Source of the DNA: Saprospiraceae bacterium
Lineage (GTDB): Bacteria; Bacteroidota; Bacteroidia; Chitinophagales; Saprospiraceae
Assembly: GCA_028280415.1 (NCBI GenBank)
Contig: JANQLV010000070.1
Coordinates: forward strand, 1-44,085
Direction: 5' to 3'
DNA length: 44,085 nucleotides
A program made the translations under genes and the position numbers. The notes below the pieces were generated by a model. It saw nothing but the letters and a program-made list of their open reading frames with translations. It did no database searches and was not told the origin of the DNA. Shown piece after piece: positions 15,715 through 40,815 of the stretch; within the stretch, counting starts at the first letter, position 1, and every line of letters begins with the position of its first letter.

Positions 15715-16638
15715 ATGACAAATAAGAACAGATTTGAAATAATTATAGTTGGCGGAAGTTATTCAGGGCTTTCAGCTGGAATGGCTTTGGGTAGAGCATT
15801 AAGGAATGTTTTAATTATAGACAGTGGTCAACCATGCAATATTCAAACGCCTTATTCGCATAACTTCATCACTCAAGACGGAAAAACGCCAAAGAAAATA
15901 TCTAGCCTTGCCAAACAACAAGTAGAAGAATATCGAACCATTAAATTTTATAATGGACTTGCAACAAGTGCAATAAAAACACAAAATGGATTTGAAATAA
16001 CAACCCAAAAGAACGATAAATTCAAAACAAAGAAACTCATTTTTGCCACAGGGGTAAAAGATATAATGCCGAATATTCGAGGTTTTGCCGAATGTTGGGG
16101 AATATCCGTCATTCATTGTCCGTATTGTCACGGTTACGAAGTAAGGAAAGAAAAAACAGGCATTTTAGCCAATGGGGATTTTGCATTTCATTATGCCCAA
16201 CTCATTAGCAATTGGACAAAAGATTTAACCATATTTACCAATGGAAAATCTACATTGAGTCAAGAGCAGATTGATAAAATTACGAAAAATAATATTCCGA
16301 TTGTGGAGAAAAAGATTGCTTCTTTCGAACACAACAAAGGAAATATTCGGGCAATTGTTTTTGCTGATAATTCTACTTTTCAGCTTAAAGCGATCTATGC
16401 AAAAACTAACGTTGAACAACATTGTAAAATTCCAGAAGCACTTGGATGTGAGTTGACAGAACAAGGACTTTTAAAAGTAGATATGTTTCAAAAAACAACA
16501 GTGGAAGACATTTTCGCCTGTGGAGACAATGCAAGTCCATTTCGATCCATATCATATGCTGTTGCGACAGGAAATATCGCAGGTGCCGTATTAAACAACG
16601 GAATGACTGAAGAAGAATTTAAAAAAGATAAATGCTGA
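15715..16638 (+). CDS. Thioredoxin-reductase-like FAD/NAD(P) oxidoreductase
   Basis: 307 residues. The N-terminal FAD-binding Rossmann motif is IIIVGGSYSGLSAGMALGRA. The redox motif HCPYCHGYEV (CxxC, about residue 140) is as in TrxB relatives, and a C-terminal FAD motif reads TTVEDIFACGDNASPFRSIS. The second nucleotide motif is degraded: GILANGDFAFHYA replaces the usual GxGxxG/A, so NAD(P)H binding may differ or be weak. Proteins of this type reduce small thiol partners, bacillithiol or metal complexes in Bacteroidota; the exact substrate is unknown. The palindromic operator upstream places it in the same metal-responsive regulon as the MerC operon, where a reductase could supply thioredoxin-like partners. 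Confidence 0.85.
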   Translation: MTNKNRFEIIIVGGSYSGLSAGMALGRALRNVLIIDSGQPCNIQTPYSHNFITQDGKTPKKISSLAKQQVEEYRTIKFYNGLATSAIKTQNGFEITTQKNDKFKTKKLIFATGVKDIMPNIRGFAECWGISVIHCPYCHGYEVRKEKTGILANGDFAFHYAQLISNWTKDLTIFTNGKSTLSQEQIDKITKNNIPIVEKKIASFEHNKGNIRAIVFADNSTFQLKAIYAKTNVEQHCKIPEALGCELTEQGLLKVDMFQKTTVEDIFACGDNASPFRSISYAVATGNIAGAVLNNGMTEEEFKKDKC

Positions 16639-17134: not shown

Positions 17135-17181
17135 ATCACCCCCCAGGGTGATTTGTCCTCCCTTTTCCAGGTTTACTTTTG
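17135..17181 (+). promoter_or_regulatory. ATCACCC palindrome operator and -7 element of the cyclase gene
   Basis: Inverted arms ATCACCC (17135-17141) and GGGTGAT (17146-17152) are followed after exactly 21 nt by TACTTTTG (17174-17181), a match to TAnnTTTG. The element puts the start of transcription near 17186, and so rules out the GTG/ATG-like starts before 17218. The palindrome centre falls near -42, where class II activators sit. The same arrangement occurs at 18607 and 20947. Confidence 0.8.
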
Positions 17182-17217
17182 TGGTATTATTTCACTAATC
17201 CTCAAAACCACATTAAA

Positions 17218-18570
17218 ATGTCTTGCCAAATTACTTACCTGGGAATCAACCAAAGCGTAGTTACTTCAGGTGCTGAAGATTCATTGCTTGAGATTTCCAT
17301 TGAAAATAAAATCCCTCATTTACACGAATGTGGCGGCAATGGAAATTGTACAACTTGTAGGGTCAGGATCATAGAGGGCGCCCAGAATGTAAATCCTAAA
17401 ACATCTATTGAGAAATCAACTTCGGACGCCAGGAAATGGGATCCCTCAATACGTTTAGCATGTCAATGTTATCCCAAAGGAGATGTAAAGCTACAACGTC
17501 TGATTTGGTCTAGCGGAGAGGTCAATAAATTGCAAACCGAATTAGTTCCTGAAGGAAAGGCGGAAGAACGCCCGATTGCGATACTCTTTTGTGATTTGAG
17601 AAATTTCACCAAGCTTTCTTCTCAAAATGCCAACTTTGATTTAGCTTATATGCTCAATCATTTTTACACAGCATTAAGCGAACCGATCTTGATGAACAAC
17701 GGCATCATTTATCAATATGTTGGTGATGAGATCATTGGTGTATTCGGTACCGCCGGAGGAATGAGGCAAAAGAATTGTACAGATGCCATCCGGGCTGCTA
17801 TTGGAATGCAATATGCTCTGGATCGACTGAATAAAATTGAGTTAAAAGAGTTCAAAGTAAAACTTGAAATGGGCATAGGTATTAATTATGGCCGGGCCTT
17901 TGTTGGGCATCTTGGGCATCCTACCCACCGCCAGTTTTCTGTCATTGGTGATCCGGTAAATATAGCTAGTAGAATACAAAGTAAGACCAGACAAACAGAA
18001 GCGAAAATATTGATTTCCAATACTGTGCTTAAATGTGTAGACAAAGGCAGTCTCGATATTGGTAAATCATTTCATACCACACTTACGGGTAAAGCAGAAC
18101 AGACTGAAATTCATGAAGTCCTGAACTTTAAGCAAATGGATTTGCAATTAGAATTACAAGCTTCCCTTTATATGCTATTGCAGGATGAAGATCTTTTTGC
18201 CAAAGTATTTTATAAAAAGGTATTTGAAAAAGCGCCTTTCGTAAAGGCTTTATTTAAAAGTAGTATGATTGATCAGGGTCGCTTGCTCACACATATGCTG
18301 GGCGGTATCGTCTATTCCCTTTCCCGGCCACAGCACCTTAAAATGGGGCTAAAAAAACTAGGACAAAGTCATCATCATTATGGGGTAAAGGCGGAATACT
18401 ATCCCGTGGTTAAAGAAGCCATGCTGGAAACCATTGAAGATATTCTTGGAGAAAGGCATAGCACCAATATTGCCGAAGCCTGGTCACAGGCGCTGGATTT
18501 TGTTACGGATACCATGAAGAGCTGGAACAATAATCAAGTGCAAGAAAGGCTAATCCGGGAAGTAAACTAA
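17218..18570 (+). CDS. Ferredoxin [2Fe-2S]-class III nucleotide cyclase-globin fusion
   Basis: 450 residues from the ATG at 17218 (the longer frame from 17179 starts inside the promoter). Residues 1-95 form a plant/adrenodoxin-type [2Fe-2S] domain with C38, C44, C47 and C82 (HECGGNGNCTTC..RLACQC). Residues about 115-300 are a class III cyclase: metal aspartates D126 (FCDLRNFT) and D170 (YVGDEIIGVFG), transition-state N248 and R252 (GDPVNIASR). The purine-selecting positions are Q166 (normally Lys for ATP) and S241, so ATP versus GTP cannot be decided. Residues about 308-440 are a flavohaemoglobin-type globin with likely proximal haem ligand H385 (LGQSHHHYGV). No membrane segment is present. 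It probably makes a cyclic nucleotide in response to redox state and O2 or NO. Confidence 0.9.
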   Translation: MSCQITYLGINQSVVTSGAEDSLLEISIENKIPHLHECGGNGNCTTCRVRIIEGAQNVNPKTSIEKSTSDARKWDPSIRLACQCYPKGDVKLQRLIWSSGEVNKLQTELVPEGKAEERPIAILFCDLRNFTKLSSQNANFDLAYMLNHFYTALSEPILMNNGIIYQYVGDEIIGVFGTAGGMRQKNCTDAIRAAIGMQYALDRLNKIELKEFKVKLEMGIGINYGRAFVGHLGHPTHRQFSVIGDPVNIASRIQSKTRQTEAKILISNTVLKCVDKGSLDIGKSFHTTLTGKAEQTEIHEVLNFKQMDLQLELQASLYMLLQDEDLFAKVFYKKVFEKAPFVKALFKSSMIDQGRLLTHMLGGIVYSLSRPQHLKMGLKKLGQSHHHYGVKAEYYPVVKEAMLETIEDILGERHSTNIAEAWSQALDFVTDTMKSWNNNQVQERLIREVN

Positions 18571-18606
18571 ACTCATTTCAGGCTATTGTACTTTTCCTTT
18601 TACAAT

Positions 18607-18653
18607 ATCACCCCCGGGGGTGATTTCACAACATCTTATCCACAATACTTTTG
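18607..18653 (+). promoter_or_regulatory. ATCACCCCCGGGGGTGAT operator and -7 element of the first S74 gene
   Basis: A perfect 18-bp palindrome (18607-18624) is followed after 21 nt by TACTTTTG (18646-18653). A weak hairpin (ATTGTA 18585-18590 / TACAAT 18601-18606) lies directly before it and may end the cyclase transcript. The sequence from here to the ATG at 18686 closely resembles the leader of the paralogue at 21028 (both share TATCCACAATAC). Confidence 0.85.
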
Positions 18654-18685
18654 AGGCATTACTTAATCTTCCAAAAAGAAAAACG

Positions 18686-20944
18686 ATGAACAATACTTTA
18701 AGTATAATTTTTTTCTGTTTGTTAAGTTTGACTTTATCTGCTCAGTCCATTGGTATCAATGAAGATGGCTCAGCTCCCGATGCCAGTGCAGCATTAGACA
18801 TTAAAAGCACTCAAAAAGGCATTTTGATTCCCAGACTGACAACACTTCAACGTACATCCATCCCGATACCAGCTAAGGGCTTAATCGTATTTGACCTGGA
18901 TACCGAAAGTTTCTGGTTCTATGATAATATCGACTGGATAGAGCTGATTGGCAGGAATAATTCGGCAAAGAATATTTTGGACGGAGATGTGGATACCGGA
19001 ATTGAGGTAGAGGAAAACCCGGATGAAGATTTGATTCGCTTTAAAACTGCGGGTACGGAACAGTGGCAGATGAATGGGCCGAGGTTGGAAAATAAAAATT
19101 CGGGGAGAAGTATATTTATTGGTCTTAATGCCGGAGCTGCCGATGACTTAGGATCCAATAGAAATGTATTCATCGGGGAAGAGGCTGGTTCAAATAATAT
19201 TGACGGCTTTAGGAATATTGCTATTGGCGAGCAAAGCTTATTTTCAAATATTGATGGGTTTAATAATATTGCTATCGGTGAGCAAAGTTTATTTTCTAAT
19301 GTAGATGGATTGAACAATATTGCTATTGGTTTTTTAACCATGGATGCTAATACCTCAGGGTCAGTGAATACTGCATTAGGACATCAATCAATGCGCCTTA
19401 ATGAAACAGGAACAGAAAACACCGCAGTAGGTTTTAGTTCATTATTCTCGAATAGGACTGGCAATTACAATACAGCTATCGGAACACTTAGCCTGGCCTT
19501 GAATGAAACAGGAGGATTCAACTCTGGTTTGGGGGGACAAGCATTATATAACAATACAAGTGGAGATGCTAATGTTGGTGTTGGTTATCAAACACTATAC
19601 AATAATGTTACTGGTAATAATAATATCGGTATCGGTTATCAAGCACTATATAATAATGAGGACAGCAATAATAATATCGGTATTGGTTATCAGGCATTAT
19701 ACAATAACGAAGATGGCTATGACAATATAGCAATTGGAGAATTAGCTTTGTACAGTAATACTATCGGAAACCAAAATATTGCTATCGGCTTAGAGGCATT
19801 AAACGATAATATAGATGGAGAGCGAAATATTGCTATTGGAAATGCTGTACTTTCAAGTAGCACAAACAGCTCAGAGAATACGGTGATTGGTCATGAAGCA
19901 CTATTGAACAATACTACCGGTTCTTATAATACTGTCCATGGAAATAAAGCAATGGAACTCAATTTAACCGGAAGCTGGAATACGGCAATTGGTTATGAAG
20001 CATTATATTATCCTCGTAGTAGCAACTATAATACGGCGGTTGGTTATAAGGCATTAAGAAATGTAGCTACTAATGGCACCGGCGGTAGAAATACGGCGGT
20101 TGGTAATCAGGCATTAAAGGAAAATACGGACGGGAGCCGTAATACAGCCATTGGTAATTTAGCGCTGGAAAGGAACTTACATGGTCTTGGAAATACGGCA
20201 ATCGGTGCAAGTGCATTGAATGCTAATACGCTGGGTGGACATAATGTAGCAGTTGGAACAGAGGCTCTAAGTCTGAGCACTATTGGAGATTGGAATGTAG
20301 CGATTGGTTATAAAGCCTTGGATGCCAATTTAGCCGGAGATAATAATACGGCTTTGGGGAGAGGTGCTAATAATATAATTACTGTTAGCTCTAATACTAC
20401 AGGGATAGGCTATAATGCTGATCCTACCAATCCCAATGCGGTTCATCTGGGAAACAACAGCGTCACCTGGATAGGTGGCCAGGTAAGCTGGTCGACTTAT
20501 AGTGATGAACGTTTTAAGTCAAATGTATCCGAAAATGTCAATGGCCTGGATTTTATCAATAAACTTCGCCCCGTCACCTACAATTACGATCTGGATAAAA
20601 TAAGCGACTGGAAAGCAAAGCATTATAATGAGCGGGATTCATCTGATTATGCCGAAAAGTACGAGATCGAATCTTATCGATTTTCCGGATTCCTCGCTCA
20701 GGAAGTAGAGGCTGCTGCACAGCAGGCCAATTACGATTTTAGCGGCCTTTGTGCGCCAAAGCATGAAAAGGACTTTTATTCATTGCGCTATGCCGAGTTT
20801 GTAGTGCCGCTGACTAAAGCCGTTCAGGAACTGGATGATAAAAACCAACAACTGGAAATGATTATATCGCAGCAACAACAAATGTTGGAAACACTTCAGC
20901 GGCAAGTAGCCCGGTTGGAAGGTGTTTCGAAAGTACAAAAATAA
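18686..20944 (+). CDS. Secreted NTAIG-repeat protein with C-terminal S74 intramolecular chaperone
   Basis: 752 residues from the ATG at 18686; an in-frame GTG at 18620 lies inside the operator and is rejected. A signal peptide (MNNTLSIIFFCLLSLTLSAQ) precedes SIGINEDGSAPDASAALDIK, a common N-terminal block of Bacteroidota tail-fibre-domain proteins. About 22 repeats of 17 residues follow (consensus NTAIGYxALxxNTxGxx), resembling YadA/phage-fibre beta-roll heads. The end is a Peptidase_S74 (endosialidase chaperone) domain with the self-cleavage Ser-Asp at S606-D607 (YSDERFKSN), then GFLAQEVEAAAQQ and a Gln-rich coiled coil. Such domains trimerise the fibre and cut themselves off. It is probably a surface or released trimeric adhesin. 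No T9SS domain is present. Confidence 0.88.
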   Translation: MNNTLSIIFFCLLSLTLSAQSIGINEDGSAPDASAALDIKSTQKGILIPRLTTLQRTSIPIPAKGLIVFDLDTESFWFYDNIDWIELIGRNNSAKNILDGDVDTGIEVEENPDEDLIRFKTAGTEQWQMNGPRLENKNSGRSIFIGLNAGAADDLGSNRNVFIGEEAGSNNIDGFRNIAIGEQSLFSNIDGFNNIAIGEQSLFSNVDGLNNIAIGFLTMDANTSGSVNTALGHQSMRLNETGTENTAVGFSSLFSNRTGNYNTAIGTLSLALNETGGFNSGLGGQALYNNTSGDANVGVGYQTLYNNVTGNNNIGIGYQALYNNEDSNNNIGIGYQALYNNEDGYDNIAIGELALYSNTIGNQNIAIGLEALNDNIDGERNIAIGNAVLSSSTNSSENTVIGHEALLNNTTGSYNTVHGNKAMELNLTGSWNTAIGYEALYYPRSSNYNTAVGYKALRNVATNGTGGRNTAVGNQALKENTDGSRNTAIGNLALERNLHGLGNTAIGASALNANTLGGHNVAVGTEALSLSTIGDWNVAIGYKALDANLAGDNNTALGRGANNIITVSSNTTGIGYNADPTNPNAVHLGNNSVTWIGGQVSWSTYSDERFKSNVSENVNGLDFINKLRPVTYNYDLDKISDWKAKHYNERDSSDYAEKYEIESYRFSGFLAQEVEAAAQQANYDFSGLCAPKHEKDFYSLRYAEFVVPLTKAVQELDDKNQQLEMIISQQQQMLETLQRQVARLEGVSKVQK
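19208..20362 (+). repeat. 51-bp coding repeats (17-residue NTAIG units), about 22 copies
   Basis: Degenerate tandem units at 51-base spacing inside the first S74 gene. Two neighbours near 19615-19715 (unit IGIGYQALYNNED) are almost identical, suggesting recent unit duplication or gene conversion. Copy number could vary between strains. Confidence 0.85.
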
Positions 20945-20946
20945 AT

Positions 20947-20993
20947 ATCACCCCCCGGGGTGATTCCCCAACACCATATCCACAATACCTTTG
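20947..20993 (+). promoter_or_regulatory. ATCACCCCCCGGGGTGAT operator and -7 element of the second S74 gene
   Basis: Arms ATCACCCC and GGGGTGAT (20947-20964) around CC, then 21 nt, then TACCTTTG (20986-20993). It begins three bases after the stop of the first S74 gene, so the second gene can be transcribed from its own promoter with the same control. Confidence 0.85.
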
Positions 20994-21027: not shown

Positions 21028-23445
21028 ATGAACAAGTTTTTTTTAACCACTCTTATTTTTAGCCTGACGGGTTTGACCTTATTTGCTCAGTCTATAGGCA
21101 TCAATGATGACGGTTCCGCTCCGGATATCAGTGCAGCATTACATATCAAAAGTACCAACAAAGGGATTTTGATTCCTACCATGACAAGCCTTCAGAGAAA
21201 CGCCATCCTTACACCGGCAAACGGACTAATGGTTTTCGATGCTGATACAGAAAGCTTTTGGTTCAATACTTCCTCCGGTTGGATAGAAATCGTTGAAAAT
21301 AGCACGATTAGTACGATAATCGATGCTGACTCAGATACAGAAATTCAAGTCGAAGAAAACCCGGATGAAGATCTGATTCGCTTTAAAATCGCCGGTACCG
21401 AATACTGGCAAATGAACGGAACAAGGCTGGAAAATAAAAATTCCGGTAGCAGTGTATTCATCGGACATCAAGCCGGGGCTTCTGATAATCTGACCGATAA
21501 TTATAATGTATTTATTGGAGAGGAAGCCGGAACAGCAAATACCATTGGAGTGTATAATACCGCTATCGGTTATCAGACCTTAAAGAACAACCTGAATGGA
21601 AATTACAACCTGGCTTTGGGAGCCCAAGCCTTAACCAGTAACATTTCCGGAAGTGGTAATATCGCGAGTGGATCAGGGGCCTTGTTTGATAACACCACCG
21701 GAGAGAATAATGTTGCAAACGGATATTTTGCACTTTGGAAAAATATATCGGGAAATAGGAATATTGCTATAGGAGGTTCCGCATTAAATAAAAATACAAC
21801 GGGAAATGAAAACGTGGCTGTGGGATTTGAAGCATTGTTTTCAAATACAATTGGGGAAGAGAATGTAGGGATCGGAAAAGGATCACTATATGACAACCTG
21901 GACGGAAATTATAATACGGCAATCGGGCATACCTCAATGCCATCCAACACGAATGGGAATTATAATACGGCAATCGGACATACCTCAATGTCATCCAATA
22001 CCAGTGGAAATAATAATACGGCCTTGGGGGCCAATGCAATGTTCTTTAATGCCAGTGGAAATAACAATACGGCGACCGGATACCAGGCATTGTATACCAA
22101 TCATTCCGGAGAACGGAACACGGCTATAGGGGTAGAAAGTTTAAGGGCCAATAATGTAGGAAGTGACAATATTGCTGTTGGTTATAATGCCTTGTTTACA
22201 AATGCAAGTGGAAACGGCAATACAGCAGTTGGGAACAATGCTTTATTTCTCAACTCTACTGGCTATCAGAATACGGCAATCGGTTATAATGCCTTGAATC
22301 TAAATACAGATGGTTATAACAATGCTGCTGTCGGGACAGATGCTTTATTGAAAAATACTTCCGGTTTCAATAATACTGCCATGGGGTATAAATCTCTGGA
22401 AACGAATTCTACTGCAACGAATAATACTGGTTTTGGAGCCTTTGCGTTATTTGGTAATTCAGTCGGAGAGCAAAACACTGCTGTTGGTTCTTTAGCTTCC
22501 CATGGGAATACCTCTGGCAGTTGGAATACAGCAATTGGCTATGGAGCTTTGGAAAATAATAGCTCAGGAAATAACAATACCGCTGTCGGGCGCGAAGCAT
22601 TAAACGCTGCTTCCTCCGCAAACCGGAATACTGCCGTGGGCAATAAAGCATTAACAAGTAATACCGGTTCAGAGAATTCTGCATTTGGGCATCAAGCCTT
22701 ATCCACTAACTCTACCGGCACACATAATACTGCTGTAGGAAATTTTTCTTTAGATGGAAACTTAACAGGTGGCTGGAATACGGCAATCGGTTATAATGCC
22801 TTAGAATCCAATACCTCCGGAGATAATAATACCGCCATAGGAAGAAGTGCCAACAGTACCGGAACGACTTATTCCAACTCAACGGGAATTGGCTTTAATG
22901 CCGACTGTACTACATCCGACCAGGTACGCATTGGAAACATAACCATTACCGAGATAGGCGGGTTTGAAGACTGGACCAATGTCAGTGATGGACGCTTCAA
23001 GCAAAACATAACAGAAGATGTAAAAGGGCTGGATTTTATCAATGCCTTGCGCCCGGTGACTTATAATCTAAGTGTCGATAAGATCGAAAGTTTTTTCGAA
23101 AAACATTATGGCGAAAAGGGGCAATCTTCCGAAGTAAGCAAAGCTAAAAAAGAAGCCATTCGTCAAACTGGTTTCATCGCTCAGGAAGTAGAAACTGCAG
23201 CCAGAGCATTAGGTTATGATTTTAGCGGAGTAGATGCACCGGAACATCAGGGGGATTTCTATGGTCTTCGCTATGCTACCTTTACTGTACCTCTGGTCAA
23301 AGCTGTCCAGGAATTGCATAGTAAAAATGAAGAACTGGAAGCAGTCATCCAACAACAACAGCATTTGTTATTGAATCTGCAGGCGCAAAATGAATGGTTA
23401 AAAACTGAATTTACCAGTCTCAAGGCTTCACTCCAAAATCAATAA
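21028..23445 (+). CDS. Second secreted NTAIG-repeat/S74 chaperone protein (paralogue)
   Basis: 805 residues, with the same plan as the protein at 18686: signal peptide (MNKFFLTTLIFSLTGLTLFA), SIGINDDGSAPDISAALHIK block, about 25 repeats of 17 residues, and an S74 domain with cleavage pair S653-D654 (VSDGRFKQN), GFIAQEVETAARAL and a terminal coiled coil (ELEAVIQQQQHLLLNLQAQN). The first Glu of the usual SDER motif is Gly here. The paralogues arose by tandem duplication that included the promoter. They may form homo- or heterotrimeric fibres. The next gene starts two bases after this stop, so they form an operon. Confidence 0.88.
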   Translation: MNKFFLTTLIFSLTGLTLFAQSIGINDDGSAPDISAALHIKSTNKGILIPTMTSLQRNAILTPANGLMVFDADTESFWFNTSSGWIEIVENSTISTIIDADSDTEIQVEENPDEDLIRFKIAGTEYWQMNGTRLENKNSGSSVFIGHQAGASDNLTDNYNVFIGEEAGTANTIGVYNTAIGYQTLKNNLNGNYNLALGAQALTSNISGSGNIASGSGALFDNTTGENNVANGYFALWKNISGNRNIAIGGSALNKNTTGNENVAVGFEALFSNTIGEENVGIGKGSLYDNLDGNYNTAIGHTSMPSNTNGNYNTAIGHTSMSSNTSGNNNTALGANAMFFNASGNNNTATGYQALYTNHSGERNTAIGVESLRANNVGSDNIAVGYNALFTNASGNGNTAVGNNALFLNSTGYQNTAIGYNALNLNTDGYNNAAVGTDALLKNTSGFNNTAMGYKSLETNSTATNNTGFGAFALFGNSVGEQNTAVGSLASHGNTSGSWNTAIGYGALENNSSGNNNTAVGREALNAASSANRNTAVGNKALTSNTGSENSAFGHQALSTNSTGTHNTAVGNFSLDGNLTGGWNTAIGYNALESNTSGDNNTAIGRSANSTGTTYSNSTGIGFNADCTTSDQVRIGNITITEIGGFEDWTNVSDGRFKQNITEDVKGLDFINALRPVTYNLSVDKIESFFEKHYGEKGQSSEVSKAKKEAIRQTGFIAQEVETAARALGYDFSGVDAPEHQGDFYGLRYATFTVPLVKAVQELHSKNEELEAVIQQQQHLLLNLQAQNEWLKTEFTSLKASLQNQ
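21550..22845 (+). repeat. 51-bp coding repeats (17-residue NTAIG units), about 25 copies
   Basis: Same repeat family as at 19208-20362. The units near 21905-22010 (NTAIGHTSMPSNTNG and NTAIGHTSMSSNTSG) are near-identical neighbours. Confidence 0.85.
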
Positions 23446-23447
23446 TC

Positions 23448-25061
23448 ATGAATATCCAAACAGCATACAGGCTTTCCTTGAAAAACATTTTCATTTTACA
23501 CTTAACTATCCTATTAGGTACAACTTCCCTGGCATCAGCACAAGGTAATTTCCAAATCAGTAATGGAACACATCTGATGCTGGGGAGTAGCCATCTGGTC
23601 ATCGACAATTGTGATTTCAACAACCAGGGAAGCATGAATGCTCAATCTGCCCACTTAAAGTTTACCGGTGATAATGATGTATTACTGACTTGCGGAAACG
23701 ATTCTATCCCTTATCTGGAGATTCAAAAAAACGCTGGAACGAAAGTCATATTAGGCGATGATTTATTAATTACAGATACGCTTGAATTTACTGCTGATTT
23801 CAACTATCTGGACATCGACGGAAATGATTTGATTTTAGAAAGTGATGCGGCTATCCTCAGCACAGCCCCCAACAAATTCATCATTGCCGGGAATACTGGC
23901 GAAGTCATCAAAAAAGATTTGAGCTGGTTTAATTTTCCTGTGGGATTTGATGAAACATCTTTCAATCCCATTACGATTACTGAAAACGGCACTCCTGATA
24001 CCATCGGAGTACGCTGCCTTGAAACTGCCTATAGCAACGGAAGTAGTGGACCTGCTCTTTCGGATGCAGTAGCTACAGCCTGGCTAATTAGCGAAAAAAT
24101 TCCTGGAGGATCGGATTTACAAACTTCTGTTTCATGGAACATAGTCGATGAACCTTTAGGCTTTGATAATACAGACTGTGGTATCATGCGTTACCATGAT
24201 GGGGATTGGGACCTGCCGGTTACCAAAATGACGGCAGCCGGAGGAACCGGACCTTATGCCTTAAATCAAAGTATTGATAGCCTGGGACTTATCGCTATAG
24301 GTGGTGAATCTATGATCAACCGGGTACAACTCGCTTTTCGAACTTTCCTGCAAGGGCCTTTTTCTGCTACGGCAATGAGTGATCAATTGCGAAGCAAAAA
24401 CCTGATTCCTTTAACCGAACCTTACACTGATCTGGGATATACTCATGTTGGCCGGGGAGGAGGGGAAACGATTGATCCAACAGTTTTGACATTGAGCGGT
24501 GAAGATGCCATCACAGACTGGATTGTACTGGAATTACGGGATCAAAATAATCCGGGTTTAGTGCTTGAAACCAAATCTGCATTAATTCAAAAAGATGGAG
24601 ACATCGTCGACCTGGATGGTATTTCCGATGTAGGGATTCCGGTATTAGATGATGATTATTACATTGCCATTCGACACCGCAATCATCTTGGGATACGAAC
24701 GCCTGTCGATCATCACCTGACAGAAGAAAGCAGTACGGTTTATGATTTTACCACTGCTTCTTCCCAGGCCTCCGGTACAAATCCAATGGCCGATCTTGGC
24801 AGCGGGATATGGGGTATGTATGCAGGGAATGCTGATGGAAATACTATGGTAAGAGCTACCGGTCCTCCGACAATAAATGATTACTCGAACCTCCTTAATT
24901 TCCTTGGCGGACCAACTGGCATTATATCAAACATTTATTCCCGGCAAGACTTCAATATGGATGGAAATGTACGTGCTACAGGGCCGCCGGTAATCAATGA
25001 TTATTCTCGCTTACTGAATGTATTGGGAACACCTACCAATATCATTTTTGAGCAATTATAA
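23448..25061 (+). CDS. Secreted protein with C-terminal dockerin-like tandem repeats
   Basis: 537 residues. A signal peptide (ending in TTSLASAQ) is followed by a beta-rich region, about residues 28-280, typical of Bacteroidota surface proteins (NFQISNGTHLMLGSSHLVID and similar), then a second domain from about 285 (NRVQLAFRTFLQGPFSATAM). The C-terminus has two repeats, NADGNTMVRATGPPTINDYS and NMDGNVRATGPPVINDYSRL, each followed by LLNxLG. The Asp/Asn spacing (DxNxDGxV...ND) resembles the calcium loops of dockerins, so the tail may be a calcium-dependent attachment or sorting module in place of a T9SS domain. It starts two bases after the S74 gene and so is co-expressed with it; joint assembly is inference. 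Confidence 0.75.
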   Translation: MNIQTAYRLSLKNIFILHLTILLGTTSLASAQGNFQISNGTHLMLGSSHLVIDNCDFNNQGSMNAQSAHLKFTGDNDVLLTCGNDSIPYLEIQKNAGTKVILGDDLLITDTLEFTADFNYLDIDGNDLILESDAAILSTAPNKFIIAGNTGEVIKKDLSWFNFPVGFDETSFNPITITENGTPDTIGVRCLETAYSNGSSGPALSDAVATAWLISEKIPGGSDLQTSVSWNIVDEPLGFDNTDCGIMRYHDGDWDLPVTKMTAAGGTGPYALNQSIDSLGLIAIGGESMINRVQLAFRTFLQGPFSATAMSDQLRSKNLIPLTEPYTDLGYTHVGRGGGETIDPTVLTLSGEDAITDWIVLELRDQNNPGLVLETKSALIQKDGDIVDLDGISDVGIPVLDDDYYIAIRHRNHLGIRTPVDHHLTEESSTVYDFTTASSQASGTNPMADLGSGIWGMYAGNADGNTMVRATGPPTINDYSNLLNFLGGPTGIISNIYSRQDFNMDGNVRATGPPVINDYSRLLNVLGTPTNIIFEQL

Positions 25062-25149: not shown

Positions 25150-26328
25150 ATGATGAAAAACATACTTCTTATACTACTGATATTTCTCTTGGCGGGACAA
25201 GTCTATGGGCAACGTTTTTTGGCTAGCATGGAAAGCAATGAAGATACACTGATTTTTAAAATCTCACCAACGGGTGGCAGCATTACTACCAATTGGTCAG
25301 ACATTGAATTCTTTCTTAGATGGCCGGACAGTTCACCCGCCTTTACTTTTGGTGACATCCTTGTAAATACTACAGATTTTCCAGGGGTGAGTATTCCAAA
25401 TAATGGCACTGATGTACAAGGAAGTGAAACGGGGTTTACTAACAACTGGTTTGGAACTTCTTTTTCGGCTACCGCTTCGCAAACCTATAATTTCGGAAGC
25501 GACTACTGGGTGTTCAAGGTAGTCGTCAACGGACCTGCCCAGGCAACTGATATAGCATTTGAGTTGTGTCACAATAATAATTTTGCACCCTTTTATCTGG
25601 CCTTGACAGACGGAGCAGGAAGTGACCTGACTGCTAATGATGACAATTTAAAATTTTATGGAAATGATGCTCAAATATGTGGTCCTGTCAACTGTCCTGC
25701 ATCTACACCAGGCACCAATCACATTGTTTCTTTACCTATACCTCTGCCCGTCGATCTGGTCTCTTTTGAATCCTACAAATTGAATGAAACAGATGCGTTG
25801 TTGAAATGGGCAACGGCTTCTGAAATTAATTCCAGTCATTTTGAAATCGAACGCAGTACGGATGCAGTGGATTGGAGGTTGATCGCTACCGAACAAGCCA
25901 GAGGTTATACTAATGCAAATCAAAATTATGACTTCATTGATAAAGATGTTTTCAATACATTGGGTATACATGATCTTTTTTACTATCGTCTGAAGATAAT
26001 TGACCTGGATGGCACTTTTGAGTATGCAGATATTCGATCCGTACAATTTGACCGCCCTCAAGCCACCTGGAACATCTTTCCGAATCCTGTGACTACAGAC
26101 GTTTATCTAAACGTTGAAAACGGAAGCCGCATGAATGAGACAAAGTTGTATCTCTACAATATTACCGGTCAACTCATTTTGCAAAAACAAGTGGCAAAAG
26201 GTGAATTTGAAATGCCTTATCATTTAGACCTTACTCAGGAAAACATTAGCCCTGGAACTTATCTGTTATTGCTTTTCGAAGAAGAACGTCAAATACTGAG
26301 TGAACGATTAATTGTTCAAGATTTATGA
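25150..26328 (+). CDS. T9SS-secreted protein of unknown function
   Basis: 392 residues. A signal peptide (MMKNILLILLIFLLAGQVYG) precedes a beta-rich N-terminal domain (about 22-190) without a recognised family. A fibronectin-like segment (ALLKWATASEINSSHFEIER, about 215-300) is common ahead of T9SS tails, and a type A T9SS sorting domain reads WNIFPNPVTTDVYLNVENGS..LYNITGQLI..ISPGTYLLLL. It is exported by the Por/Gld machinery to the cell surface or medium. It lies 88 bases after the dockerin-like gene, in the same direction; no copy of the ATCACCCC operator precedes it. Confidence 0.82.
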   Translation: MMKNILLILLIFLLAGQVYGQRFLASMESNEDTLIFKISPTGGSITTNWSDIEFFLRWPDSSPAFTFGDILVNTTDFPGVSIPNNGTDVQGSETGFTNNWFGTSFSATASQTYNFGSDYWVFKVVVNGPAQATDIAFELCHNNNFAPFYLALTDGAGSDLTANDDNLKFYGNDAQICGPVNCPASTPGTNHIVSLPIPLPVDLVSFESYKLNETDALLKWATASEINSSHFEIERSTDAVDWRLIATEQARGYTNANQNYDFIDKDVFNTLGIHDLFYYRLKIIDLDGTFEYADIRSVQFDRPQATWNIFPNPVTTDVYLNVENGSRMNETKLYLYNITGQLILQKQVAKGEFEMPYHLDLTQENISPGTYLLLLFEEERQILSERLIVQDL

Positions 26329-26411: not shown

Positions 26412-28319
26412 ATGAAGAACATACTGACCGCTATCTTTATTTTCCTGGGCTGTATTACCTTATTGTCTGCTCAATCTGAGAAAAGCAGTCTATTGCAGGC
26501 GCTGTCAAATGCCAAAGATGATACTTCCAAAGTCTGGTTACTACACGATATTGGCAAGTATTACCGTTCGCAAGGTATTGACAGTATGATTTATTATCTT
26601 CAAGAAGCGCTTGACCTGTCCCGAAAATTGGATTTTACAGAAGGAATGCTTGGATCCATGTATTATTTGAGTTTGAGGTACCAGTATAGAGGAGAGCATA
26701 AAAAAGAACTTGCGATCCTAAGGGAAGCAATGAGCTTAATGAAAGATCAAAAAGAGTCGGGATGGCATGCAGATATTTATAAGCAGTTGGGACAAGTTTA
26801 TTTTAGAGATCTGAAATATGATTCTGCTTATTATGCCTATAAAGAAACAGAACGAATCCTGAAGGACGTCAATTACGAATATGGCATATGGCACAATAAC
26901 TATCTTTTGTATTGCCTGTTTAATGCGCAGGGCGAGTATGAAAAAGCAGAGCAATATTTGCAGGAAGCTTATGAAATCACCAAGGCCGAGGGTATTCGCA
27001 AAGATTTTGGATGGATTCTGGTTATGCAGATTGAATATTATTTTCGAACAAAAAACTGGGACCGCTATTCTACTGCTTCAGAAGAATATTTAAAATTTCA
27101 AAGCGATCGCAAACAACCGCTAAGCAATAAACATCCTGACCTGCTCTTCAAATATAGCGATGAGAATCCGGATGATATTATCAAAGAATTAGAATCCCTG
27201 ATCAGATACCATCAGGAGAAAAATAATGAACTTAGCTTGTTGGAAACTTACACTTATCTTGGAAATGTGAAAACGCAGGCAGGCGACTACAAAGGAGCTA
27301 TTGCCGATTATTTAAAGAGCATAAGCATTGCAGAGAAATTATCCCATGAAACTTTTGTGGCAGATAATTACAAAACCATTTATCAAGCTTACGAATTGGA
27401 TGGTAATCTTGCAGCAGCTTTTCCTTATTTAAAAAAATACCATCAACTCGTTGATAGCTTAAACACGGTTGAAGTGCGAAAAAATATAAGTGAACTGGAA
27501 GTCAAATATGACCTCCTCAAAAAAGACGAAGCGCTTGCTCAAAACGAATTAGCATTGGCCAAAACAACTCAGGCGAAGAAAATCTATACCATCATAGCCA
27601 TTGCAGGATCAATACTGGCTCTTGTGGCCCTTTGGTTTCTTTATTTTAAAAACCGAACCAATCGCGTATTAAAATCACAAAAACTGGTCATCGAAAAAGC
27701 ACTCAATGAAAAAGAAATTTTATTAAAAGAAATCCATCACCGGGTAAAAAACAATCTTCAGGTCATTTCCAGTTTGCTCAACTGGCAGTCCAGGTACATA
27801 GAAGACAACAAAGCCTTACAAAGTATGAAGGAAGGTCGCAACCGCGTTCAATCCATGGCTTTGATTCATCAGAATTTATACCAATCAGAAAACCTGACTG
27901 GAGTTATGGTCTCTGATTATATTGACAAGCTGGGCAATAGTCTGTTTAACTCTTACAACATCAAGCAGGACCAAATACAATTTAAGAGTGATGTAGAACC
28001 ACTTAATCTCGATGTGGATACACTTATTCCATTGGGTTTGATTCTTAATGAATTGCTGAGTAATGCTTTGAAGCATGCCTTTCCTGAAGGTCGAGAAGGA
28101 CAAATACAAATCAGCTTGCAAAAACAAGAAGAGAGTCTGCTACTGGAAGTAAAAGATGATGGTATCGGCATTCCTGATAAATCGGTAGAAAAATCAAAAG
28201 ATTCGTTTGGCTACAAATTAATTGAAGCCTTTGCCGAAAAACTAAAAGCTCAATTACAAATCGAAAACGCCTATGGTACTACGGTACGCTTGTTGATCAG
28301 AAATTTCAAAACAGTTTAA
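26412..28319 (+). CDS. TPR-containing sensor histidine kinase (HisKA_2 type)
   Basis: 635 residues. A signal peptide (MKNILTAIFIFLGCITLLSA) sends a TPR domain (about residues 25-350, repeats such as GEYEKAEQYLQEAYEITKAE) to the periplasm. One TM helix follows (about 391-412, IIAIAGSILALVALWFLYF). The cytoplasmic part has a HisKA_2 box EIHHRVKNNLQVISSLLNWQ (phospho-His at 442/443) and an HATPase domain with N-box LGLILNELLSNALKHAFPEG and G1-box VKDDGIGIPD. The response regulator starts 12 bases downstream, so this is a two-component pair. The periplasmic TPRs suggest sensing of a protein or peptide ligand. Confidence 0.9.
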   Translation: MKNILTAIFIFLGCITLLSAQSEKSSLLQALSNAKDDTSKVWLLHDIGKYYRSQGIDSMIYYLQEALDLSRKLDFTEGMLGSMYYLSLRYQYRGEHKKELAILREAMSLMKDQKESGWHADIYKQLGQVYFRDLKYDSAYYAYKETERILKDVNYEYGIWHNNYLLYCLFNAQGEYEKAEQYLQEAYEITKAEGIRKDFGWILVMQIEYYFRTKNWDRYSTASEEYLKFQSDRKQPLSNKHPDLLFKYSDENPDDIIKELESLIRYHQEKNNELSLLETYTYLGNVKTQAGDYKGAIADYLKSISIAEKLSHETFVADNYKTIYQAYELDGNLAAAFPYLKKYHQLVDSLNTVEVRKNISELEVKYDLLKKDEALAQNELALAKTTQAKKIYTIIAIAGSILALVALWFLYFKNRTNRVLKSQKLVIEKALNEKEILLKEIHHRVKNNLQVISSLLNWQSRYIEDNKALQSMKEGRNRVQSMALIHQNLYQSENLTGVMVSDYIDKLGNSLFNSYNIKQDQIQFKSDVEPLNLDVDTLIPLGLILNELLSNALKHAFPEGREGQIQISLQKQEESLLLEVKDDGIGIPDKSVEKSKDSFGYKLIEAFAEKLKAQLQIENAYGTTVRLLIRNFKTV

Positions 28320-39990: not shown

Positions 39991-40815
39991 ATGAAGTTTA
40001 TCGGCATAACAGAAGAGTATTTGATTTTAAAGGATATAGGTACAGACAATCACGATATCCTAAAAGAAAAAATCAAAAGCAGTCTTTCGATTCTTTGGAA
40101 CACAGAAGGAGAAACTGTGCTGTTGATCGATAAAGTTGAATATCGTTTGAAAAAGGATCAACTTATTTTTTTAACGGAGTTCCATAATGTTGAAATAAAA
40201 AAAATAGATATGCTTCGAATGGTGCGATTCAATCGCCCGTTCTATTGTATCAAGGATCACGACAATGAAATTGGCTGTAAAGGTGTTCTTTTTTATGGAG
40301 CTTCAAAAGTGCCGATAGTCAATATTCCGGATGATGAACTTGAAAAGTTTGAGCTGCTCTGGAAAATGTTTAAGATCGAAATGCAATCCAGAGATAAATT
40401 ACAGATCGAGATGCTCCAGATGATGCTTAAAAGATTTATCATTCTATGTACCAGATTGCGAAAAGAACAGGGAGAGGTACAATTGGATAAAGAAACTCAT
40501 GATGTTGTCAGAGAATTTAATTTTTTGGTCGAAATGCATTTCAAAACCAAGCATTCCGTGGCTGAATATGCTGATCTGCTTAATAAATCCCCCAAGACTT
40601 TATCCAATTCCTTTTCAAAACAAAATCAAAAGTCTCCGCTTCAGATTATTCAAGAGCGAATACTGCTGGAAGCCCGCAGGTTACTGGCCTATAGCGAAAT
40701 GGCCGTTAAAGAAATAGCCTATGAAATAGGCTTCGATTCCGTCCAGACTTTTAGCCGTTTTTTTAAAAATAAAGAAGGTATTTCTCCTTTGGAATATAGA
40801 AAACGCGTGGCCTAA
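39991..40815 (+). CDS. AraC-family transcriptional regulator
   Basis: 274 residues. The N-terminal part (1-165) resembles a cupin-like sensing domain with no clear ligand residues (VLLIDKVEYRLKKDQLIFLT). The C-terminal AraC double HTH has HSVAEYADLLNKSPKTLSNS for the first helix pair and VKEIAYEIGFDSVQTFSRFF then GISPLEYRKR for the second, the family signature. It follows the methyltransferase by seven bases and may control that gene or the glyoxalase-like gene downstream. Confidence 0.9.
   Translation: MKFIGITEEYLILKDIGTDNHDILKEKIKSSLSILWNTEGETVLLIDKVEYRLKKDQLIFLTEFHNVEIKKIDMLRMVRFNRPFYCIKDHDNEIGCKGVLFYGASKVPIVNIPDDELEKFELLWKMFKIEMQSRDKLQIEMLQMMLKRFIILCTRLRKEQGEVQLDKETHDVVREFNFLVEMHFKTKHSVAEYADLLNKSPKTLSNSFSKQNQKSPLQIIQERILLEARRLLAYSEMAVKEIAYEIGFDSVQTFSRFFKNKEGISPLEYRKRVA

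Follow-up and report, generated by a model that had tools for sequence, protein, structure and literature searches.

A palindrome phased with TAnnTTTG promoters as the probable operator of a LuxR-type response regulator in Saprospiraceae

The 44,085-bp contig JANQLV010000070.1 of a Saprospiraceae bacterium from the phylum Bacteroidota (assembly GCA_028280415.1), referred to here as the window, carries a gene cluster in which three promoters share the palindrome ATCACCCN4GGGTGAT. Sequence comparisons make it very likely that this palindrome is the operator of P0001, a response regulator of the NarL/LuxR type that is encoded in the same cluster and probably works with an adjacent histidine kinase of the TPR-HisKA_2 type. 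Across the sequences compared, the motif keeps a fixed distance of 21 or 22 nt to a TAnnTTTG element, lies mostly between genes and is tied to the subfamily of regulators that includes P0001. It can be written as an operator and promoter rule for a group of LuxR-type regulators of Bacteroidota, AAAATCACCCN4GGGTGA-N21/22-TAnnTTTG, which makes their targets predictable from sequence. In the window, the rule connects a TPR kinase with genes for S74 fibres and for an unusual Fer2-cyclase-globin protein. Neither this operator nor the GerE-S74 fusion proteins discussed below are described in the titles and abstracts among the literature matches listed, which is a weak negative.

A palindrome shared by three promoters

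Three exact copies of the palindrome are found in the window, all within 3.8 kb, and each is followed exactly 21 nt downstream by a TAnnTTTG element, just as the first-pass annotation of this DNA had reported. Copy 1 (ATCACCCCCCAGGGTGAT, 17135–17152; no strand is assigned to the palindromes) is the proposed operator of the promoter of a nucleotide cyclase gene, with the −7 element TACTTTTG at 17174–17181 (+ strand). Copy 2 (ATCACCCCCGGGGGTGAT, 18607–18624), the proposed operator of the gene S74a, has the −7 element TACTTTTG at 18646–18653 (+), and copy 3 (ATCACCCCCCGGGGTGAT, 20947–20964), the proposed operator of S74b, has the −7 element TACCTTTG at 20986–20993 (+); the TAnnTTTG consensus is thus matched at all three predicted promoters. 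All three palindromes lie outside ATG-initiated open reading frames (ORFs) of at least 100 amino acids. Their number is not expected by chance, as 100 dinucleotide shuffles of the window gave a mean of 0.00 and a maximum of 0 exact palindromes. A genome-wide scan of the kind proposed in the first-pass annotation (7,096,994 bases in 81 contigs) yielded no exact copy beyond the three in the window, and none of the reversed control pattern. Copies 2 and 3 are probably not independent of each other and probably arose by duplication, because they precede paralogous S74 genes and have similar flanks (TATCCACAATACYTTTGA in both); the flanks of copy 1 differ.

The sites read as an 18-bp inverted repeat of the form 7-4-7. 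The TAnnTTTG element is placed at −12 to −5 in Bacteroidota promoters according to PMC9723704, which would put the palindrome at −51 to −34 with its centre at −42.5. The −33 position would therefore be abutted and not covered. The earlier description of a class II-like site centred near −42, before promoters without a −33 element, stands except for the statement that the palindrome occupies −33.

The palindrome accompanies a subfamily of response regulators

P0001 (28332–28946, +) is recognized as a response regulator of the LuxR/NarL type, and proposed as the activator binding the palindromes, on the basis of Pfam matches, its translation, its relatives in the PDB and co-localization. A Response_reg domain (6.7e-18) is followed by a GerE domain (8e-16), and the translation carries Asp55, Thr83 and Lys105, as in a receiver domain; by analogy, Asp55 would be the phosphoacceptor and the other two its conserved partners. 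The nearest solved relatives by PDB sequence matches include ChrA, VraR, DesR and NarL. Just 12 nt upstream is the gene of the TPR-HisKA_2 histidine kinase (26412–28319, +; HisKA_2 and HATPase_c by Pfam), the proposed sensor and phosphodonor. Both genes belong to the same cluster as the palindromes and lie 5–11 kb downstream of them. A scan of the window with profile hidden Markov models found P0001 as the sole GerE protein, and no CRP protein. The first-pass annotation had stated that the activator is not in the window, which the presence of this regulator and kinase does not support.

We searched 398 genomes of the family for P0001 and selected 80 loci (1,265,123 bases) by similarity of the regulator, disregarding the motif; they represent 80 of the first 82 matches listed, with P0001 itself and a paralogue on contig C12 of the same genome excluded, and include near-identical loci (e.g. 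L133, L139 and L140) and several short contigs. These loci contain 19 exact sites, 28 with one mismatch and 27 with two, while 12 palindromes with shuffled half-sites (two of the draws identical) gave altogether no exact and two one-mismatch matches in the same sequences. If one mismatch is allowed, 32/80 loci have a site, and if two are allowed, 44/80. The 47 exact and one-mismatch sites concentrate in particular places: 20 are located within about 400 nt past the stop codon of the regulator gene, 11 at 1.85–2.5 kb before the regulator, which in many loci corresponds to the start of the kinase gene, and six within 250 nt before the regulator, with the remaining 10 elsewhere. Although ATG-initiated ORFs of at least 100 amino acids cover 82% of the bases, 40 of the 47 sites fall outside them, and some of the seven others may be inside ORFs that exist by chance. 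When both strands of the 47 sites are read, TAnnTTTG (at most one mismatch) occurs at offset 21 in 28 of the 94 readings and at offset 22 in six, compared with 0–4 readings at each of the remaining offsets between 0 and 49. A homologue of the kinase is present in 67/80 loci.

To characterize the site further, we aligned 42 instances at spacing 21 (39 from relatives and the three from the window); as these were selected on both halves of the motif, the alignment is informative for the flanks and for the absence of a −33 element. Upstream of ATCACCC, adenine prevails at positions −3, −2 and −1 (71%, 93% and 57%, respectively), and the last base of the palindrome is relaxed. No conserved −33 element is seen in the spacer among these 42 sites, in line with what had been noted earlier for the three promoters of the window.

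The association also holds at the level of whole genomes. An exact site occurs in 21 of 150 family genomes, namely in 20 of the 57 that encode a regulator at E <= 1e-45 and in one of the 93 that do not (Fisher's test, 5e-9, ignoring relatedness and genome size); the single exception, G083, has a regulator at E 1.1e-44.

In the genome of the window itself there are five further palindromes with one mismatch (L004–L008). In four of them (L004–L007), one of the two strands shows TAnnTTTG, with one mismatch allowed, at a distance of 21 nt; L008 does not. One of the five belongs to the paralogue most similar to P0001 (C12:821-1438, 52% identity) and is situated 31 nt past its stop codon. The next closest paralogue (C16:20438-21022, 42% identity) has a TPR-HisKA_2 kinase gene directly in front of it, and another of the five sites lies 340 nt before this kinase gene. 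With uniform placement, the chance that two paralogues would each lie within 3.2 kb of a site is about 2e-5. Among 30 regulator loci of this genome (L009–L038, 1.5 kb per side), a site with at most two mismatches was found only in L010, that of the C12 paralogue; the sites paired with P0001 and with the C16 regulator lie beyond the 1.5-kb flanks.

A wider collection of genomes, one for each of 84,980 species, was scanned for ATCACCCN4GGGTGAT followed by TAnnTTTG at a spacing of 16–26. The 81 matches obtained fall in 79 loci, each counted once for its neighbours (for L216 and L251, which have two matches, the first was used), and taxa were assigned by record name. Of 53 matches in records named as Bacteroidota, 47 have a spacing of 21 (29 matches) or 22 (18 matches); the 24 matches from other phyla are spread over spacings 16–26, and four matches are unplaced. 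Within 1 kb of the site, a gene for a GerE protein is found in 15/46 Bacteroidota loci at spacing 21 or 22 and in 2/5 at other spacings; the corresponding counts are 3/6 and 2/17 for loci outside Bacteroidota and 0/5 for unplaced ones. This conservation of spacing across Bacteroidota supports the earlier proposal that the three promoters form a shared regulon with class II-like sites. In other Bacteroidota, the palindrome is also seen 53–168 nt after genes of large TPR-GerE regulators (L211, L252, L260 and L272) or 170 nt before such a gene (L264), and GerE proteins adjoin the motif in five records from outside the phylum (L234, L241, L269, L218 and L254).

Cyclase, S74 and p5 genes as companions of the site

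Homologues of the cyclase are present in 17/150 family genomes, and no site with up to two mismatches occurs at any of 21 homologous loci other than that of the window (up to 1.5 kb per side, some cut by contig ends; several of the homologues are weak or partial matches with about 30% identity). A 69% identical paralogue elsewhere in the same genome (G000:C49:277901-279205) has no palindrome within 1.5 kb. As for S74b, a two-mismatch site occurs in one of 29 best-match loci and in none of them together with TAnnTTTG (at most one mismatch) at 21 or 22 nt. The conservation of the motif upstream of homologous genes, which had been suggested as a check, is therefore not borne out for the cyclase and S74b, although S74 genes do stand beside a site in some relatives. 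Such a gene adjoins an exact site with a one-mismatch TAnnTTTG at 21 nt in L142 and a two-mismatch site without a clear TAnnTTTG in L104. Loci of Emticicia aquatilis (L247) and Spirosoma profusum (L266) have an S74 gene close to the regulator and the site, and L112 has one close to the regulator but no site.

Homologues of p5, the gene that follows S74b, have a two-mismatch site in three of 29 loci, two of them (L317 and L331) with an exact TAnnTTTG at 21 nt, and the pattern scan revealed two more p5 homologues downstream of exact palindromes (L227 and L277). An S74 fibre gene closely followed by a p5 homologue is a recurrent arrangement, seen in the window (21028–25061) and in G077:C173, G046:C190 and G055:C72.

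Which protein reads the palindrome

Several observations weigh against P0001 and its relatives as the proteins that read the motif. No site with at most two mismatches is found in 36/80 regulator loci, few of which have weaker ones correctly placed and some of which are on short contigs; an alternative 7-4-7 inverted repeat with TAnnTTTG at 21 or 22 nt occurs in none of these 36 loci (15 were found in the 44 site-bearing ones). The presence of the site is only mildly clustered on a tree of 81 regulators (21 changes compared with a mean of 26.6 after shuffling, 11/500 shuffles being as low), and in the window itself no site precedes the kinase gene or the P0001 gene. In the wider collection, 31/46 correctly spaced Bacteroidota loci, some of them short, have no GerE gene within 1 kb, and GerE-domain proteins other than response regulators, of the TPR_MalT-GerE type, also adjoin the motif. 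Finally, the cyclase and the exact site are associated across genomes, the site being present in 8/17 genomes with the cyclase versus 13/133 without it (p = 4e-4) and, within regulator-positive genomes, in 8/12 versus 12/45 (p = 0.016). None of the five cyclase genomes without the regulator has the site, and we suspect genome size or a shared life style behind this association.

It is unlikely that the palindrome serves as the operator of a repressor that blocks RNA polymerase at −33. The site does abut this position, but the promoters have no conserved −33 element and would probably be weak unaided, and the tight phase of 21 or 22 nt resembles activator contact, of which a fixed phase to the promoter is typical.

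A different LuxR-type protein might bind instead: a solo GerE protein, either of the two paralogous response regulators, or a heterodimer that any of these forms with P0001. Each of the two closest paralogues has a nearby site, the regulator is followed by a second GerE ORF in 7/80 loci, and TPR_MalT-GerE regulators adjoin the motif in other Bacteroidota. Because several neighbours are of this last type, the motif may serve LuxR-type proteins more generally. For the three promoters of the window we nevertheless regard such a binder as quite improbable, since no GerE protein besides P0001 was found in the window, and P0001 shares its cluster with all three exact sites.

The first-pass annotation had favoured an activator of the CRP/FNR family that might bind what the cyclase makes, and the step from a cyclase to CRP is indeed a tempting one. 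The position near −42 fits a class II activator, a cyclase is among the three downstream genes, and the cyclase and exact sites are associated across genomes as described above. However, the motif tracks the LuxR-type regulator, and no CRP gene was found in the window. The 10 HTH_Crp_2 genes of the genome, among which the first-pass annotation had suggested looking for an orphan CRP/FNR gene with its own copy of the motif, all lack a site with at most two mismatches within 1.5 kb. A CRP profile, built from three CRP proteins of this genome and recovering all 10 own loci, found a CRP gene in 0/46 correctly spaced Bacteroidota loci and in 2/80 regulator loci. In addition, the arms of the palindrome read TCAC..GTGA, which is opposite to the order of CRP/FNR half-sites, GTGA..TCAC. 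None of the 21 other cyclase-homologue loci bears a site with up to two mismatches in the sequence covered, and the suggested feedback through a cyclic nucleotide is not supported either. A CRP/FNR regulon is thus very unlikely, and we rejected it for want of a linked CRP gene at the loci of this genome and of other Bacteroidota.

That the palindrome ends transcription of the upstream genes, or forms a hairpin in their RNA, is hardly tenable and was rejected on position and on the spacing to TAnnTTTG: the inverted repeats are GC-rich and copies 2 and 3 start 36 and 2 nt after a stop codon, but no long T run follows them, copy 1 is about 500 nt past the nearest upstream gene on the same strand (15715–16638), and the fixed distance to TAnnTTTG as well as the sites before kinase and regulator genes would be left unexplained.

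The proposed circuit and its parallels

With P0001 as the activator, the circuit might work as follows. The kinase would phosphorylate P0001 at Asp55, and a dimer of the phosphorylated protein would bind the 18-bp inverted repeat centred at −42.5. From there it could contact the primary sigma factor or RNA polymerase and so replace the absent −33 element, i.e. act by class II activation, turning on the cyclase gene, S74a and the pair S74b-p5. Copy 3 may also drive the genes of the kinase and of P0001, because the gaps between successive genes from S74b on are short (2, 88, 83 and 12 nt), in which case positive feedback would operate through the two-component system. The cyclase would be an output of such a circuit and not the source of a ligand for its regulator.

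A fair model for the action of P0001 may be NarL of Escherichia coli, a member of the NarL/FixJ group with the same architecture of REC and GerE domains. There, too, a dimer binds an inverted repeat just upstream of the core promoter, as P0001 is predicted to do. According to PMC7419079, NarL uses 7-2-7 sites, located just upstream of −35 at yeaR and centred at −44.5 at ogt. The site described here differs in its 7-4-7 form and its sequence; it accompanies a Bacteroidota-type promoter with TAnnTTTG and no −33 element, and the kinase is of the TPR-HisKA_2 type. LuxR of Aliivibrio fischeri likewise binds with its GerE-type dimer to a palindrome, the lux box, near −42.5, replacing the contact at −35. 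The position of our palindrome is similar to that of the lux box, while the sequences of the two boxes differ, and LuxR, which lacks a receiver domain, has an acyl-homoserine lactone as its ligand. CRP/FNR activators share the class II position but have the reverse order of arms, and no CRP gene linked to the motif was found.

The combination of a GerE regulator and S74 genes has a parallel in extracellular contractile injection systems, whose neighbourhood includes a GerE regulator, sometimes a histidine kinase, and S74 genes, as stated in PMC8213781. The window shares the GerE regulator and the S74 genes with these neighbourhoods; none of the core Pfam families of contractile injection was recognized among the 28 window proteins scanned (45 ORFs are listed for the 44-kb contig).

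Fusions of GerE and S74 domains

In three relatives, GerE and S74 are parts of one protein. A single reading frame in L151 (6804–9371, −), L281 (220–1866, −, on a 4.4-kb contig) and L283 (1462–3012, +) encodes a GerE domain, a hydrophobic segment (19-residue hydropathy of 1.98–2.19) and a fibre that ends in S74 with an SDxRxK motif. The hydrophobic segment resembles a signal peptide and has A/G-Q or S-Q after it. A frame in L108 (7170–7549, +) begins in the same way as these three but is cut by the contig end before S74 is reached. A kinase-regulator pair adjoins the fusion in L151, L283 and L108, and a palindrome with one mismatch, followed at 22 nt by a one-mismatch TAnnTTTG, precedes it in L151, L281 and L108; in L283, no site was found with two mismatches allowed, nor with three allowed in the surrounding 14 kb. 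The fusions bear a likeness to the eukaryotic factor MYRF, which employs an S74-like domain.

These proteins of relatives raise the testable idea that the export of a fibre is coupled to the control of genes. Insertion or export of the fibre and cleavage past the hydrophobic segment could anchor or free the GerE domain, which might then read the palindrome either together with the response regulator or in opposition to it. The components are separate genes in the window, namely two S74 fibres and the regulator, with the proposed operator placed before the fibres. That the circuit couples surface-fibre export to transcription in this manner is at present a speculative possibility, and we consider it doubtful.

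The second GerE ORFs within about 320 nt past the regulator, mentioned above for seven of the 80 loci, comprise five small ones (L077:3838-4038, L091:2678-2872 and those in L083, L131 and L144), the truncated frame of L108 and the fusion of L151. Many more small GerE ORFs are among the further matches listed. Another variant, L286:1-1770 (−), has GerE before a very long protein (a frame of 1980 amino acids) with a hydrophobic segment after GerE; no S74 is present in the part of this protein covered.

Other genes of the cluster

The proposed target of copy 1 (17218–18570, +) encodes, according to Pfam and the translation, a protein of 450 amino acids from the ATG at 17218 that combines Fer2, a class III nucleotide cyclase and a globin, for which redox or gas sensing is possible. 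S74a (18686–20944, +, with the ATG at 18686), the proposed target of copy 2, is a secreted fibre-like protein with a C-terminal S74 chaperone domain, and the paralogous S74b (21028–23445, +) is the proposed target of copy 3; both assignments rely on Pfam. The gene p5 (23448–25061, +), located 2 nt after S74b, is without a Pfam match, and between it and the kinase gene lies a gene whose product carries a sorting tail for type IX secretion (Por_Secre_tail by Pfam; 25150–26328, +). The next large gene after P0001 (29416–34341), which has no exact palindrome of its own, encodes an adhesin-like protein of 1641 amino acids in which SprB, PKD and Ig-like repeats are combined with a type IX sorting tail. 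Further DNA-binding proteins encoded in the window are a Fur-like one (2308–2688) and one of the AraC type (39991–40815).

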